Source of the DNA: Nautilus pompilius
Taxonomy: Eukaryota > Mollusca > Cephalopoda > Nautilida > Nautilidae
Direction: 5' to 3'
DNA: 64,000 nucleotides
NCBI GenBank assembly: GCA_018389105.1
Contig: JACATO010000311.1
Span: forward strand, 1,049,501 to 1,113,500
Of this stretch, positions 27,446 to 59,932 are shown in pieces. The notes beneath the pieces were generated by a model that searched no databases, was not told where the DNA came from, and saw nothing but the letters and a program-made list of their open reading frames with translations. The number at the start of each line of letters is the position of its first letter. Positions within the stretch are counted from its first letter, which is position 1. The position numbers and the translations under genes were made by a program.

Positions 27446-27600
27446 TGCTCGATATCAAATTATCACACGAATACTTCTCGTCCAATGCTCGATATCAAAT
27501 TATCACACGAACACTTCTCGTCCAATGCTCGATATCAAATTATCACACGAATACTTCTCGTCCAATGCTCGATATCAAATTATCACACGAATACTTCTCG
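27446..27600. repeat. 40-bp tandem repeat, about four copies
   Basis: Units begin at 27448, 27488, 27528 and 27568, exactly 40 bp apart, each with CTCGATATCAAATTATCACA and then CGAATACTTCTCG. Copies differ by about one base (ACACTT versus ATACTT), so the array is young. Each unit carries the palindrome GATATC. The small open frames across it are repeat translations. Confidence 0.95.
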
Positions 27601-28495: not shown

Positions 28496-28585
28496 GAGTA
28501 TCAAATAATTCTGTATGCAAAATTAAAAAAGATTAACTTTATAAACCATAGCCATTTAAATACTTGCTTGTTTTGTGGCTCCAAA

Positions 28586-29497
28586 GGTTCCACGGTATTG
28601 CTCTCACGTTCTTCCGAAGGTTCCACGGAATTACTCTCACGTTCTTCCAAAGGTTCCACGATATTGCTCTCACGTTCTTCCATAGGTTCCACGGTATTTC
28701 TCTCATGTTCTTCCATAGGTTCCACGGTATTTCTCTGATGTTCTTCCAAGGGTTCCACGGTATTTCTCTCACGTTCTTCCATAGGTTCCACGGTATTGCT
28801 CTCACGTTCTTCCATAGGTTCCACGGTATTTCTCTCATGTTCTTCCAAAGGTTCCACGGTATTTCTCTCATGTTCTTCCAAAGGTTCCACGATATTGCTC
28901 TCACGTTCTTCCATAGGTTCCACGGTATTTCTCTCATGTTCTTCCAAAGGTTCCACGATATTGCTCTCACGTTCTTCCATAGGTTCCACGGTATTTCTCT
29001 CATGTTCTTCCAAAGGTTCCACGATATTGCTCTCACGTTCTTCCATAGGTTCCACGGTATTTCTCTCACGTTCTTCCAAAGGTTCCACGATATTGCTCTC
29101 ACGTTCTTCCATAGGTTCCACGGTATTTCTCTCATGTTCTTCCAAAGGTTCCACGATATTGCTCTCACGTTCTTCCATAGGTTCCACGGTATTTCTCTCA
29201 TGTTCTTCCAAAGGTTCCACGATATTGCTCTCACGTTCTTCCATAGGTTCCACGGTATTTCTCTCATGTTCTTCCAAAGGTTCCACGATATTGCTCTCAC
29301 GTTCTTCCATAGGTTCCACGGTATTTCTCTCATGTTCTTCCAAAGGTTCCACGATATTTCTCTCATGTTCTTCCAAAGGTTCCACGGTATTTCTCTCATG
29401 TTCTTCCAAAGGTTCCACGGTATTGCTCTCACGTTCTTCCATAGGTTCCACGGTATTTCTCTCATGTTCTTCCAAAGGTTCCACGATATTGCTCTCG
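28586..29497. repeat. 33-bp minisatellite, 28 units, with 66-bp higher-order period
   Basis: Units start at GGTTCCACG and recur exactly every 33 bp from 28586 to the last start at 29477, which is 27 whole periods with no insertion or deletion. Two main types alternate: one with GATATTGCTCTCACG and CCATA, the other with GGTATTTCTCTCATG and CCAAA, giving a 66-bp dimer through most of the array. Because 33 is a multiple of three, several frames stay open on both strands. On the minus strand one reads as an acidic 11-residue repeat (EPLEEHERNTV type, about 327 codons), and another as WNLWKNMREIP type with a non-repeat N-terminal extension to 29591. In each frame I checked, the variable positions change amino acids at least as often as not, so no frame shows protein-level constraint. 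I treat it as a minisatellite, with coding not excluded. Confidence 0.9.
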
Positions 29498-32266: not shown

Positions 32267-34437
32267 ATAAATCTACAAGTTTCACAAGTTGTGATGATGT
32301 CAGTCTCACTCTTTAAATGTTTTCCTTTTTCATCATTCTCCTTTATCTGGAACAGAATGGAGAGTAGGATATGCCACAGTAAATATTTAAGCTGAGTAAG
32401 GATATCATTTCAAGAAAGTACTGAGGGGGGCCCAGGTGCGATAAGCGTTAATTCTAGAAATGATTGCCAATAATCGCGGTTTCTTAAAGAACGTTCGCCG
32501 TGTGCTACTCTACTCTTGGTTTCTCCAAACAATTAAACCTATAATCTAGATAAAAGTGATGTAGTTCATGAAATTTACCTGGAGACTGATCAAAAGGTTT
32601 GATCCGGTTTATTAACAAAAAATCAGCACGGATCATTTATCACCGAAATATTCTCTTTTGTAAACGTTACCTAAAACACTGTCTTAGAGGGGTTTTTTTA
32701 AAAATTTTTAGGAAGGTTGTCTTCTGTTTTCGATACATGTAGATAATATGTATTTAAGGTTATCAGACAATTAAAGGGGTTTTTTTGTTGACTACATCAA
32801 GTTAAAGCTGATGATGTCGAGATCTTTAAAAAAAAGGAGAATGATAATATAATTCATCAAATAAAAGTGGTACCGAATGGCGAATAGCCATTATTTTCTA
32901 ATATGGATGTAATTATATGTTTACTAACATAAATACAAGTTTATTCATAAATTTCAAGAACTATTTTTTAAGATTGATCAGCAGATCGAACACTGTGTAT
33001 AGAGGTTCAAAATCATCATCTTAGCTTTTGTCATCGGGAAGACGCCTATTATTTCTGTAGCCATTTGTTGTTGTTGTTTACCTTTCCTCTCTTCTCTCAA
33101 ATTAAGCTTTGTGAGTCAGCTCTATGTCCGCCGTGCGCGCGCCAGAGCCGGCTAGCCAACCTTCCGCAGACGGGCTCTGTCTGATCTTTCTGGAAGCCGC
33201 CCATCTCCTGTGATCTCTCTGTCTGCTGCAAGCACACGTCCGCTGGCTGCGCGCTCGTAGAACTGGCGGTTTGTCGAGTTAAGTAAAAGAAAGAAAGCGA
33301 AAATCTTTTTATATAATTTGTTGTTGTTGTTTTTCCCTTACACTGCATTGTTCTAAGACGTAGTCTTTGAGTTGGCAGCTGTTTCTGTTGATTTTACCTA
33401 TTTCTGTTTTAGCCGCAGAATCACCCCGTTCTACATTAACCCTTTAACCGCCAAGGTCACATGAAAGCCGGATAACTTCGCTTAAAATTCTTATTTCTAA
33501 AAGAAATTGCATTAAGGAAAATAGATTTTATTTCAACCATGAATCTGTTTCGTGTAAATGAATATGTTTATGACCTAACCCATGACTACTTAAAAATGGG
33601 GGAACTCTTTGGTTTTTAACGTTTTTTTTTGGAATCTGTTACACAAACGGAATGGGTTCGTTATCTTTTTAATTCACTTCTGTACCTGCAGAGTTTAATG
33701 TAAAGGGCAGAACCAACAACTTTCTATGCTCACAGAACCTTAAAAAGTGGTTCATTTGGCGAACTCTTGTTATGGTTTCCTTCGGAATAACCAAAGAGAC
33801 AAACCGATGAAAGGAACGAAAAATAGAGCATTTAGGTCCCTGACAGTTCGCAGTCCAGTATATAATGCGCATCTTTCGGAGAGAGTAAATTCTGCTCTCC
33901 GAAACCGTTTGCAATGCAATCTGAGCCACGCTTTTAATTGAAAGGTGTAAAGATTCTGGATGGATTCTTTACTGTTTTCAAGGTAACAATCACAGAAAAA
34001 ACCTTTATCTATTAAATATTTCAAACTCATTCTCTTTCTTTATTGCCACTGATAGCAAACCGCGGTCTCTTTTCTTTTTATATCGTAAATTTTTATCGCA
34101 ACTAAAAAGAACCCGAGCAGCGGCCGGCTTTTGTTTAAATTTTGTTCCGCTACCACGGCCACTAATGCCGACTTCCTACGTTCTAGCGGAGATCCAGTTC
34201 TTCTGGTTCGCTCTTTTCTAATTCTAGGCCACTCCTCCTCCACCACCACCACCACCCCTCTCCCGCCCCATTTGGGACACTGAAGGACTCCAGAAAGCGA
34301 GCCGCACTCATGCGGAACTTTCACAGAAGGCCGGATCCCGTATTCCAGCGCCAGTCTAGACTAATTTGCAGTTGAAGCATCTGGCAAAGAGTTAAAAAAT
34401 TTTACTTCCTATAAACAGTGTATCGACGACGGATATT
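32266..34437. other. Unannotated stretch upstream of the 1.57-kb transposon
   Basis: No gene supported. It is AT-rich to about 33000 and more CpG-rich at 33100-33260. Open frames of 80-94 codons at 33097-34324 match nothing known. Confidence 0.5.
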
Positions 34438-34565
34438 ACACTGGTCAACAAATTTTTATTTTTTTTCTTTGGCAGACCATCTAGGAGTGTTTTCTGGGGT
34501 TTTGAAGGTCGCTGATTACGAATATAACATTGGTTTTGTCTGATTGGCTCTAGTTTAGAAGATAT
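34438..34565 (+). repeat. Left terminal inverted repeat
   Basis: Starts ACACTGGTCAACA. It contains TTTCTGGGGTTTTGAAGG and ATTGGCTCTAGTTT, matched in the same spacing by the right repeat. A TAG at 34556-34558, in frame with the transposase, closes the reading frame upstream. Confidence 0.85.
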
Positions 34566-35538
34566 TGATAGCCTCAAATAAGCCTAAACTGCTAAAATTC
34601 TCCCTGAAATACTTCAATATAGAAGCAGTAAATAATAATTTTCTGAAAGTTGTACTTTTGCATAATGGCAATAAGTTTGCTCCTGTACCACTTGGCCATT
34701 CTACCAAGATGAAAGAAGAGTATGATGGTATCCAATTTGTTCTTGAAAAGCTAAATTACAACACTCATAAATGGCTGATTTGTGTGGACTTGAAAATGGT
34801 GAATTTTCTGCTTGGTCAGCAAAGTGGGTACACAAAGTATCCCTGCTTTCTTTGTTTGTGGGATAGCAGAGCAAGAATCCAGCACTGGAGAAGGGAGAAC
34901 TGGCCAGAACGAGAAAGTCTCGAAGTCGGCACAGCCAACGTCATCAATGAGCCTTTGGTACCCAGGGATAGAATCATCTTCCCTCCATTGCACATAAAAC
35001 TAGGGCTCATGAAGCAGTTTGTTAAGGCGTTGAACAAAGATGGGGATTGCTTCAAGTACATATGCAGGCAATTTCCAGGTCTTTCCATCGAAAAGCTAAA
35101 GGTGGCATCTTCGATGGACCTCAGATTCGAACGCTCATGAGGGATTCTGACTTCACTAATCATATGAACATGGTTGAGTTAAATGCTTGGGTGTCCTTCA
35201 CAGATGTAGTGACAAACTTTTTGGGAAATCACAAAGCTGACAATTACAAGCAATTGGTCCGTAAGATGCTTACTGCATACGAAAAACTAGGGGCAAATGT
35301 GAGCATCAAAGTTCATTTCTTGTTTAGCCACCTCGACAGATTTCCTGGTAATCTTGGTGATTACAGTGAGGAGCAAGGAGAGAGATTCCATCAAGACATC
35401 AAAACAATGGAAGAGAGGTATCAAGGCAAATGGGATGAGCACATGATGGCAGACTACTGCTGGAACCTTTTGAGAGACTGCCCGAAAGTTGCTCACAAGC
35501 GAAAATCGTATAAACGTCAATTTCACTTTTGTGAATAA
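34565..35538 (+). pseudogene. Transposase-like protein of the 34.4-36.0 kb element, frameshifted and N-terminally truncated
   Basis: Two open frames form one protein interrupted by a single-base loss near 35098-35101: the first runs to a stop at 35140, the second to the stop at 35538. The first segment has LLHNGN (residues 31-36), a candidate catalytic aspartate in ICVDLK (residue 75), a CFLC zinc-knuckle-like pair (94 and 97) followed by LWDSRA, and PPLHIKLGLMK near residue 140. The second has GGIFDGPQIR, VHFLFSHLD and SEEQGERFHQD, where the glutamate is a candidate third catalytic residue, then KWDEHMMADYCW and a basic C-terminus. The D...CxxC...E layout suggests an RNase H-like DDE transposase (inference). 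From memory, closely similar proteins are widespread as uncharacterised predictions in arthropods, cnidarians and molluscs and are longer at the N-terminus, where the first acidic residue would lie. There is no ATG at the upstream end, and a TAG lies just before it. Dead copy but otherwise well preserved. Confidence 0.8.
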
Positions 35539-35539
35539 A
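35534..35539 (+). promoter_or_regulatory. AATAAA polyadenylation signal overlapping the transposase stop codon
   Basis: AATAAA begins two bases before the TAA stop at 35536-35538, so the signal and stop share bases. The nearest TG-rich downstream sequence (TTGTTTTGTGTG) follows within about 20 bases, as expected for cleavage. The 3' UTR would therefore be very short. Confidence 0.5.
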
Positions 35540-35892
35540 ATATTGTTTTGTGTGTTCATTGTAACTAAGAATCTAGTGTATAATAATGCTTTGCATTAAT
35601 TTATGATATATAACTGATTATGTAAATGTTTTTTTTCCCTTGGAGAATTAAAATTCAGCAAATTTTTAGCAAATTTTTTGTATATTCTCGAAATATATGA
35701 AAAGTGTTCATTTATTAATAAATGAAATGATGTTATATCTAACTTAACTTGTTAGATTGAGATTTTACACTGTCTTTGTGGTTTTGGATTATCATAAAAA
35801 TCAATATCTGACATTTTTGCACTATTTAGCCGTTTTTTGTACGTTTAGTTATGGTCGCGAATGGGTGATTTCAGACGAACGACCCCCCTGTG

Positions 35893-36010
35893 ATATCTCC
35901 AAAACTAGAGCCAACTTGAAAAACAAAATGTCAGATTCGGATTCAGCGCCCTTGAAAACCCCAGAAACCAGTCTCACTTTTCCTGCCAAAAATATTGTGT
36001 TGACCAGTGT
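35893..36010 (-). repeat. Right terminal inverted repeat
   Basis: Read from 36010 downward it begins ACACTGGTCAACA and continues with TTTTTGGCAGG, TTTCTGGGGTTTTCAAGG and GTTGGCTCTAGTTTTGGAG, in register with the left repeat. Confidence 0.85.
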
Positions 36011-38071
36011 TATCCACAAGAACTATTACCACTCCACTTTCCGGATATTTCTCTACGTATCTGGATACCATCTGTAACTCGTCCGCTTCTTTACGTGATG
36101 AGTGGTTTGTTTTGTTGTTTTTTTCTTCCTGTATTCTAATACTTTGAACGTTTCAAGAAGTACTCGTGGTCCATGAAGCAGCTGTAATTCTCTTGTCATA
36201 GCTTAGCCTTGTGCCGGAAATCAACGGAAGAGACCGGCGGATAAGCAATGAGTACCTCCAACATAAAAGTTCCGGGTGTCAAGTTCTTAAAGGGCGGATT
36301 ATTCCTTCGTTCCCGGTGAAGCGCTAATCGATCGAGGTAAACTCTCACTTCCGCAATATAGTAATCAACTAATGGAACTGTATAAGAGAAGTCCGTCCCA
36401 TCTCTGCTGAAATCTTAACTCCGGTTACCTGCTTTAAACCTCTGTGACGACTGTCATTGAGCACCTGCTTTGACCTTAATCTCACCTGACTTTGTTAAAT
36501 GTTAATAACTATAATAATTACCCTAACCCTAACTCTGACTCGTCCGGTGCCGCGAAACGATTACGGACTATGGCGGCATTAACTGCAGAGAGGCGAAAAG
36601 CTTTTTGATTGTCCCCGTGCTGTAAACCCTTAATAACCTCCAAATCTCTACCAGACTCTCCCCTCTCCCCCCCCCCAATCAAACACCTAGAATCCGAACT
36701 AAGCAAATTAAAATTTTCCAGTCGGTCGGATTATATTCTAAATGCTTAAGGTCTTGGAACATCCAGCCAACCGGAAGTAGTTTCTTAGTGACTGTCCGTG
36801 TTTAGCAGTCCGCAGCCACCAGGCTATCGCTTGAATTTCCGCTGAACGCTTTTAGTACCCAGTATCATTTCTGCGTACGAACAAAAGACTTGCACAATGA
36901 CAAGTGCTTTACCTACACCAACTGACTAATTAGTCACAGCGCCATTCCGACTTGTTGTCTCTCGCTGCTGAGGCCCCGCACTCCGAGATGAAAAATGAAC
37001 TACCTTTTCTGAGAGTAGGCCCTTATTTTCAGGCGAAGTGGGGGTCCCGCTACCGTAACGTTTCCAAAGCTTTGCAGGCTGTCAAACCTTGGAAAGAAAC
37101 CCAGTAGTTCGAGTGGATATTTAGAGTTGGCGTTAGCAGGGGGAGGGCGCTCGCGCATAAGAGCAGCCGAGAAGGTCATAATCCTGGAGGGCGGATGCCA
37201 CCTACCTAGCTGAGATTGCCAGGCGGTCGCCCTTTCCATTCCTGCCAGCCGCTACCATTTAGTTGCAGCGGTACTGCTGTTTAACTATCGTATTATATAT
37301 GTATATAAATAAAGCCTCATCTTCATAGTCAGTAACTGTTGTTGTGTACTGTCCAGCGCGCCTCCGAGATCCTCCTCTGAGTTCAGGTGTGTAGGCAGAA
37401 CACCTGGCTCATCCCTTTTCACGTGTATCTAACACTACATACTATAAGGTGGCTGGAAGTAAAGATGAGGTTTTCGTGAACACACCTGCGTGTTCTAGTG
37501 TCCTTTGTTGCTCGCCGTTTAGTGATTAATCGCATTCCTGCGGGGTTCCAACAGACCGCCTCCGACCCCCCCGCCAAGGATTCCCTAACCAGTGACGACG
37601 ATCTCAACCGGAACATGACTCGTTGTTGTTGTTTTTCTTCTGAGATGAGTTACGAGATACACCATTAGCCAAGACGCGCAGGACTCGTTACTGTCAGCGG
37701 CCGCTCTGAGGAACACGGCTGAGCCACGGTGAACAAGTGCGGTAGAAAGTCATAGATAAATAGCTGAACTACCCGTTCACCTGTACGGTTGGTCCGCACT
37801 AAAGACTAATGTTGAAGAACGCGTAAAAGAGGCAGGAGGCCGCAGTAACGGTGATGTATACCGGCGCTTCTCCTGTTTCCAGGAGGCCCCTTATCACCCC
37901 ATCTTAATCATGCATAAATTTTTGTGTTTTAAGATTCACCAATCAATTTTCTTTACTTTAAGCTTTTCGTGCTGTTTCTGTCTATTTTTCAAGACGCGTA
38001 ATCTAAGAAACTGAAAACTAAAGTATATAAAGAGACAGACTGAAACCGAGATAATTTTATTTGAAACAAAA
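36011..38071. other. Unannotated non-coding stretch
   Basis: No gene supported. It includes a short telomere-like CCCTAACCCTAAC at 36521-36533 and a ten-base C run at 36667-36676. GC rises at 36930-37240 and 37330-37620 without a recognisable exon. Confidence 0.5.
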
Positions 38072-38416
38072 TTAAGATTCAATATCTGAGAATAAAGAAT
38101 CGATATCGGGGTAAAAATGAAACAGCGAAATCGAAGCGAGTCGAGCGTATCTAGAGGAAAACGCCTTCATAGCTTCCATGGCAGCAGACCAATCGACAAC
38201 ATCAACAGAATTAATATTTCTCGCCAGTTCATTCTCAGTGCTTAAGGTTGTCAAATCAACCAAGCTTTCTTGGCCCATAATGCTGCTCAGATGGTTCTGG
38301 ATCAGCTTCATCTTACCAAAGCACCTCTCAGCTGTAGCAACAACACGCGCGAAGAGTGATCCATCTTCTAACTTCAGCTTTGTATCGAAAATTTCTAATC
38401 GAAAAGAGAAAAGCAG
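38072..38416 (-). pseudogene. hAT-family transposase C-terminal fragment
   Basis: A 114-codon minus-strand frame, open from just after a TGA at 38419-38417 to a stop at 38072. It carries the hAT C-terminal dimerisation block: VVATAERCFGKMKLIQNHLS, then MGQESLVDLTTLSTE, then ELARNINSVDVV. These match the usual V-SAERSFSKLKLIKN-LRS-M-Q-RL--LA-LSIE pattern of hAT and ZMYM-like transposases. Only this domain is present; the zinc-binding N-terminus and the DDE core were not found upstream, where stops intervene. The segment after the domain continues about 30 residues with no known motif. It could be a relic of a full element or of a hAT-derived gene exon; relic is likelier. The sequence itself is well preserved, with no internal stop over the domain. 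Confidence 0.75.
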
Positions 38417-56943: not shown

Positions 56944-57027
56944 ACGACAGGTAGGTTCACGTGACCAGCGGACTGGGGTATAAAAACGACAGGTAGGTTC
57001 ACGTGACCAGCGGACTGGGGTATAAAA
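56944..57027 (+). promoter_or_regulatory. Duplicated 42-bp E-box plus TATA-box module, candidate core promoter
   Basis: The unit ACGACAGGTAGGTTCACGTG (first 20 bases) followed by ACCAGCGGACTGGGGTATAAAA occurs twice in tandem with a period of exactly 42 bp (56944-56985 and 56986-57027). Each copy holds a CACGTG E-box and a good TATAAAA box; the TATA boxes start at 56979 and 57021. An initiator-like TCAGACT follows at 57060-57066, about 40 bases from the second TATA. The sequence is read directly; promoter activity is inferred. No confident downstream coding exon was found. Confidence 0.5.
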
Positions 57028-59225: not shown

Positions 59226-59780
59226 TAAGTTAGATGCATTTTTGGCAGATCATATGGCTAAATTTAGACAGAATGGAAAAAATAATCCTTCTTACCTGTC
59301 ACCAAGTATTTGTAAAGGATTCATTTAACTTAAATTGAAAGAAAATTAAAAAAAAAAAACAATAGCAGCGAAACTGCAACAAGTCAGATATTTTTTCAGT
59401 GGCTGCGTATTCATCACTATATTTATTGTAGGTTGGTCAGCTAACTTGCGTATTTAAATTTGCCAATTTAGGGGGGGAGAAATTGTAGAATTGGATTTAA
59501 GCCACCAGAGAATCATTCAGGTGAAATTTCTACCGACCGTGTACGTGCAATGGTGAAAAACCCGGTTATGGACATCTCTAATTGTCGCGGAGAATCGGAT
59601 GGGGATATCAGTAATAAATATGTCAGGAAGGTCTGCAGGCGCATCTAAATCGACTAAAGCTGTTTATTCGCTACATTCCTTGTGGTGCCCATCCTTTAAA
59701 TGTAGCATAACTTAACAGTACTAAAAAAGGCCGTTCAAACGCCATTATTGTTTTTATTTTTGGTTTCTTCAGTCGCCATG
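59226..59780. other. Unannotated stretch
   Basis: No feature recognised. It contains short A runs near 59350. Confidence 0.5.
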
Positions 59781-59932
59781 TTCTCCGCGATGACGGCGGC
59801 CACGTATCGCCGGAAACAGGTTCTCCGCGATGGCGGCGGCCACGTATCGCCGGAAACAGGTTCTCCGCGATGGCGGCGGCCACGTATCGCCGGAAACAGG
59901 TTCTCCGCGATGGCGGCGGCCATCCCTTGACG
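59781..59932. repeat. CpG-rich 40-bp tandem repeat, about 3.8 copies
   Basis: TTCTCCGCGATGGCGGCGGC then CACGTATCGCCGGAAACAGG, with unit starts at 59781, 59821, 59861 and 59901. The copies are nearly identical (the first has ATGACGG for ATGGCGG) and the last is cut after ATGGCGGCGGCCA. Each unit has several CpG sites and an ATGGCGGC word. Open frames here on both strands are repeat translations. Confidence 0.97.

Follow-up and report, generated by a model that had tools for sequence, protein, structure and literature searches.

A probable Chapaev3-type DNA transposon in Nautilus pompilius, approached through one of its internally deleted copies

The stretch of Nautilus pompilius DNA analysed here (the window, 64,000 nucleotides of contig JACATO010000311.1) contains a pair of long inverted repeats that enclose the remains of a protein-coding frame. 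A sequence-only reading of the locus took the repeats to be the ends of a cut-and-paste DNA transposon, but could place it in no named superfamily. The locus therefore raises the question of what kind of element this is, and how it relates to other copies in the genome. Our answer is that the feature very probably derives by internal deletion from a young cut-and-paste transposon of the Chapaev3 type (CMC clade) and is non-autonomous; the hallmarks of that transposon are matched by a published description.

The limits first given for the element, 34438..36010, were off by a single base on either side. Because the A that precedes CACTGG is part of the target-site duplication, the element itself is one base shorter per end, as listed in Table 1. 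The inverted repeats of about 120 bp that had been claimed are well supported. Local alignment pairs 127 bp on the left with 117 bp on the right at a score of 54. For comparison, 1778 control pairs, each made of two 200-bp segments taken from the window, reached at most 36, with a 99th percentile of 18. The tips, 12 bp each, form a perfect inverted pair.

Table 1 Features of the element and of its transposase remnant, in window positions.
Feature	Position	Strand	Basis
Whole element, 1571-bp internal-deletion form of a probable Chapaev3-type transposon	34439..36009	+	Same ends in copies with different flanks
Target-site duplication, left copy, TTA	34436..34438	.	Direct reading; TWA duplications among other copies
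Target-site duplication, right copy, TTA	36010..36012	.	Direct reading; TWA duplications among other copies
Left terminal inverted repeat, imperfect, tip CACTGGTCAACA	34439..34565	+	Local alignment against the reverse-complemented right end
Right terminal inverted repeat, tip TGTTGACCAGTG	35893..36009	-	Local alignment with the left end
Transposase frame, 3' part (residue 266 of 562 to stop), frameshifted near 35091	34646..35538	+	Frame listing; comparison with sibling and full-length copies
Internal-deletion junction, one-base ambiguity; 945 bp of the 2516-bp form absent	34645..34647	.	Comparison with L019 and L061
Putative second catalytic Asp codon (ICVDLK), by motif	34787..34789	+	Published motif layout
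C(2)C motif (CFLC); first Cys 19 residues past the second Asp	34844..34855	+	Motif
LH motif, within PPLHIK	34988..34993	+	Motif named in the passages of PMC4079192 drawn on here
H(4)H motif (HFLFSH)	35314..35331	+	Motif; HILDAH in relative L065, incompletely kept in L066 and L067
SEEQGERFHQD block with likely catalytic Glu (exact Glu not fixed)	35365..35397	+	Motif; in L065-L067

The host assembly comprises 728 Mb in 2558 contigs. A DNA search of it gave 923 first-look candidates, with 40 scored and 144 matching pieces, which is a lower bound. At the protein level the query was an open frame of 354 residues from a sibling copy, and at least 115 matches of 92-100% identity were scored out of 7217 candidates, these counts also being lower bounds. 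An open frame of 572 codons is present in 2 of the 115 protein-level matches. Two full-length copies, L019 and L061 (on contigs C131 and C643), are 2516 bp long and identical to each other, and each has an intact 572-codon open frame, corresponding to 562 residues when counted from the first Met. A third full-length copy, on C2307 and read as two overlapping pieces, has a broken frame, and a partly read copy on C1094 contains the stretch that is absent from the deletion forms, with an internal stop.

From loci L001-L064, 54 distinct copies with both ends were extracted, with the ends set at CACTGG and CCAGTG in both orientations. The commonest form among them is 1752 bp long (25 copies, 21 of them identical); it keeps both catalytic Asp candidates but has lost the N-terminal part of the protein. 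The 1571-bp form, in which the first Asp has gone as well, is represented by eight copies, seven of them identical and the window copy being the exception. With many identical copies and two intact full-length ones the family looks young, and it was probably active recently. Because it looks young in this way, we regard it as a candidate active Chapaev3 element.

Extracting the ends of many genomic copies, which had been suggested as a way to define the target-site duplication, gave a clear result. A 3-bp direct duplication, TWA, flanks 52 of the 54 copies (31 TTA and 21 TAA), and a matching duplication is absent from the remaining two, L013 and L023. In 45 of the 52 the duplication lies in the context A-TWA-T, and 7 deviate. 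Transib elements make a target-site duplication of 5 bp, and the 3 bp seen in 52 of these 54 copies argue against a Transib/RAG-like element. PIF/Harbinger elements also duplicate TWA, and the duplication taken by itself is compatible with that group too.

The joined flanks of the 52 copies were then compared with all loci retrieved by that point, which revealed paralogous empty sites for two insertions. One is L029: its joined flanks, minus one TAA, recur in both L018 and L014, with an exact match around the junction. The other is L014, whose joined flanks are matched in L018 and L029 with one base differing, in a T-run next to the junction. Matches spanning the junction of L060 were dropped as empty sites, being produced by a local tandem repeat. 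A search with the flanks of the window copy gave no other match, and no paralogous empty site was seen for it.

All of the motifs that the sequence-only reading had quoted from the window are present, but they are split over two frames by the frameshift near 35091, with LLHNGN, ICVDLK and CFLCLWDSRA in the frame 34559-35140 and EEQGERFHQD in the frame 35026-35538. The frameshift sits in a homopolymer run. Three sites set the window copy apart from its seven identical 1571-bp siblings. Each of them lies at or next to a homopolymer run, and one breaks the frame; in the 7 sibling copies read the transposase frame is unbroken. Because all the differences from the siblings fall at homopolymer runs, the frame break may be a sequencing error. 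The internal deletion of 945 bp is a different matter. It has cost the window copy the 5' portion of the transposase frame, including the putative first catalytic Asp. Cut-and-paste movement, which had been claimed for this copy, is well founded for the family, given the duplications in 52 of 54 copies and the empty sites, but the copy itself is internally deleted and not intact. Judged by its sequence, it is an internal-deletion derivative, non-autonomous, with full-length copies elsewhere in the same genome.

The intact 562-residue protein provides a better basis for comparison. Candidates for its DDE triad were assigned by motif, and are D259 in LFIDSS, D313 in ICVDLK and a Glu block at residues 507-511. 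Between the last two lie C332 and C335, L380-H381, and H489 and H494. The D...CxxC...E layout that had been read from the window copy recurs in the intact protein, as D313, C332/C335 and the Glu block. RAG1 has the same spacing of 19 residues from the second Asp to the first Cys.

The N-terminal region of the full-length protein is cysteine-rich. The one domain match that Pfam reported for the protein is zf-AD, at a sub-threshold E of 0.14, which was discarded, as was a match of one window piece to Glyco_hydro_18 (E 0.016, also below the cut-off). Searches of Pfam with the window pieces and with the whole protein gave nothing significant. In PDB sequence searches the window pieces had no match, and the whole protein only two chance-level matches. 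A structure predicted from a single sequence for a fragment of the window copy's protein, with an RNase H fold in question, has a mean pLDDT of 35.4 and was set aside. No relative was found in the viral contigs, which carries little weight as the bracovirus named in PMC4079192 may be absent from that set, nor in the prokaryote genomes searched. A search for the peptide EEQGERFHQD in one library of papers found none.

More distant relatives were sought in the host genome using a degenerate pattern for EEQGERFH, written with a His codon not used in this family. There were 27 hits, and none for the reversed control. Three of the 27 sites were retrieved (L065, L066 and L067, on C17, C123 and C120), and all are broken relatives of the transposase. 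L065 retains LFIDSS, the second Asp, CFLC, PPLHIK and HILDAH, and has both of the candidate Asp residues. In L066, which is decayed, LFIDSS is present, but LH is replaced by VH and H(4)H by QFLHLH. In L067, also decayed, PPLHIK is present, the first Asp is missing and H(4)H is no longer intact. No independent support comes from the EEQGERFHQ block in these three loci, because the pattern for that block was what located them. By their sequences, they are probably more distant relatives from two or more further families.

The element can now be compared with what has been published. In the passages of PMC4079192 on which we draw, Chapaev3 elements are described as duplicating TWA, 'always' with A on one side and T on the other in all the elements examined there, and as having the motifs C(2)C, LH and H(4)H; CAC/GTG ends are given for Chapaev in general. 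The nautilus element has the TWA duplication, in 52 of 54 copies and at the empty sites, and has A before and T after it in 45 of 52 copies, against the 'always' of those passages. Its termini are CACTGGTCAACA...TGTTGACCAGTG, that is CAC...GTG, and the three motifs are found at residues 332/335, 380-381 and 489/494 of 562. Because the motifs, the CAC/GTG ends, the TWA duplication and the length match the published hallmarks, we assign it to the Chapaev3 type. On the hallmarks tested, the family that the sequence-only reading left unplaced already has a name, and the element represents a known kind.

In the same passages of PMC4079192, the Chapaev3 families Merrow, Garfield and Conan have CAC/GTG ends, duplicate TWA flanked by A and T, and carry the motifs C(2)C, LH and H(4)H; like the nautilus element, they also have internal-deletion derivatives. 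Full-length Merrow and Garfield proteins have 554-562 residues there, and the elements that encode them are about 2.1-2.5 kb long, against 562 residues and 2516 bp here; Merrow_PM, for example, is 2451 bp long with exons of 78 and 484 residues. There is one difference: by description, Merrow and Garfield have two exons, the first of 75-78 residues, whereas the nautilus protein is a single frame open from Met to stop (PMC4079192, in the parts drawn on).

At a wider level, Chapaev3 belongs to the CMC clade and is related to Transib/RAG1. The relevant parts of PMC12730594 treat it as a sublineage of Chapaev, and state that EnSpm, Mirage, Chapaev, Transib and RAG1 have C(2)C and H(3-4)H in common. 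An N-terminal Chapa domain is described in Chapaev3 in the portion of PMC4411706 used here; this zinc domain is reported for relatives of RAG1 as well as for Chapaev3, and the N-terminal region here is cysteine-rich. Transib and RAG1 resemble the nautilus protein in that the region from the second Asp to the Glu holds C(2)C and H(3-4)H (PMC4411706 and PMC12730594, same parts).

A rival reading is an EnSpm/CACTA or Transib/RAG-like element in place of Chapaev3. The C(2)C and H(3-4)H motifs and the mostly CA..TG ends are common to all of these, and EnSpm and other CMC elements share CAC/GTG ends and 3-bp duplications as well, according to the parts of PMC12730594 consulted. We consider such an assignment very unlikely. 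The A-TWA-T context is the one reported for all the Chapaev3 elements examined in the passages of PMC4079192 cited above, and the protein length equals that of Merrow_PM. Set against EnSpm/CACTA as described in those sources, the nautilus element has a TWA target, one short protein and no EnSpm family reported by Pfam; set against Transib/RAG1, it has the 3-bp TWA duplication and lacks a second long frame.

A PIF/Harbinger-type element is likewise a very unlikely reading, despite the shared TWA duplication. The ends here are CAC/GTG. Harbinger elements carry a second, Myb-like gene, for which the 2516-bp form offers no candidate, its longest listed non-transposase frame having 102 codons. Pfam reported no DDE family, Harbinger included, for the 562-residue protein, with only zf-AD at E up to 10, a setting at which its filters drop most weak matches. 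The motifs, in addition, are those reported for Chapaev in the passages of PMC4079192 drawn on. Finally, the notion of a domesticated host gene or a processed gene lying by chance between inverted repeats, for which only the presence of a conserved protein speaks, is extremely improbable in view of the at least 115 matches at 92-100% identity, the copies with different flanks and target duplications, and the paralogous empty sites.

For the Chapaev3-type element we propose the following mode of movement. The intact 562-residue protein, a putative DDE transposase with its cysteine-rich N-terminal region and its C(2)C/LH/H(4)H core, would bind the ends of about 120 bp and, by analogy, would cut at the CAC/GTG tips. 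The cut ends would be joined to an A-TWA-T target with a stagger of 3 bp, duplicating the TWA. We infer this enzymology of cutting and joining from the family, while the ends, the duplication, the empty sites and the intact frames are observed. The deletion forms, without the N-terminal part of the protein, would be mobilised in trans by intact copies; because they are near-identical at many places with differing flanks, they probably did spread in this way.

A further feature of the full-length element provides a clue to how the deletion forms may arise. A perfect palindrome of 68 nt (two 34-bp arms) occupies positions 200-267 of the 2516-bp form, upstream of the transposase gene, and is intact in all three full-length copies read across it (L019, L061 and the copy on C2307). 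The 98-nt stretch that holds it, folded as single-stranded DNA, has a predicted energy of -32.4 kcal/mol (z -11.3, 200 shuffles). Six distinct deletion junctions were found in the 54 copies plus ten further pieces, a count that leaves most of the at least 115 matches outside it. In positions of the 2516-bp form they run from 184 to 936, 193 to 1112, 208 to 1153, 211 to 988, 227 to 989 and 276 to 794. Two further loci, L068 and L070, considered as new deletions, are one base off the main 1752-bp form and were excluded from the junctions.

All six junction starts lie within 50 bp of the palindrome centre. Under a null model in which starts are spread evenly from the terminal repeat to each junction's own end (500,000 trials), all six fall so near to the centre with a frequency of 2 x 10^-6, or 2.2 x 10^-5 when one junction that nearly shares the end of another is left out, the centre having been chosen as reference after the data were seen. 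When only the closeness of the starts to each other is considered, the frequency is 7 x 10^-5, or 4.6 x 10^-4 with one junction dropped.

Because the junctions cluster there, we suggest that the deletions come about through interrupted repair at the palindrome. Repair of the gap would stall at the palindrome hairpin, leaving internal deletions, and the hairpin may in this way explain the origin of the short copies. The palindrome and the clustered junctions together provide a simple and testable model for how non-autonomous copies originate. A stronger version would make the palindrome a built-in self-limiting device, in which repair after excision stalls at the hairpin and yields deletion copies with both ends but without the N-terminal part of the protein, and autonomous copies are thereby turned into mobile, inactive competitors. 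We think this version improbable.

The assignment has consequences for annotation. Because the anatomy is that of a Chapaev3-type transposase, predicted genes with the series LLHNGN...CFLCLWDSRA...EEQGERFHQD are best taken for transposons until proved to be something else. The Chapaev3 candidate described here would also be distantly related to the enzyme that gave rise to RAG1.

It is worth adding some observations on the rest of the window. An open frame of 114 codons on the minus strand at 38072-38416, which we take to resemble the end of a hAT transposase, had no Pfam match at E up to 0.01. A minisatellite of about 28 copies of a 33-bp unit, at 28580-29496, leaves four frames open over about 270-360 codons. 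Near-perfect tandem repeats are present at 27446-27600 (unit 40 bp), 56944-57027 (42 bp) and 59780-59922 (40 bp).
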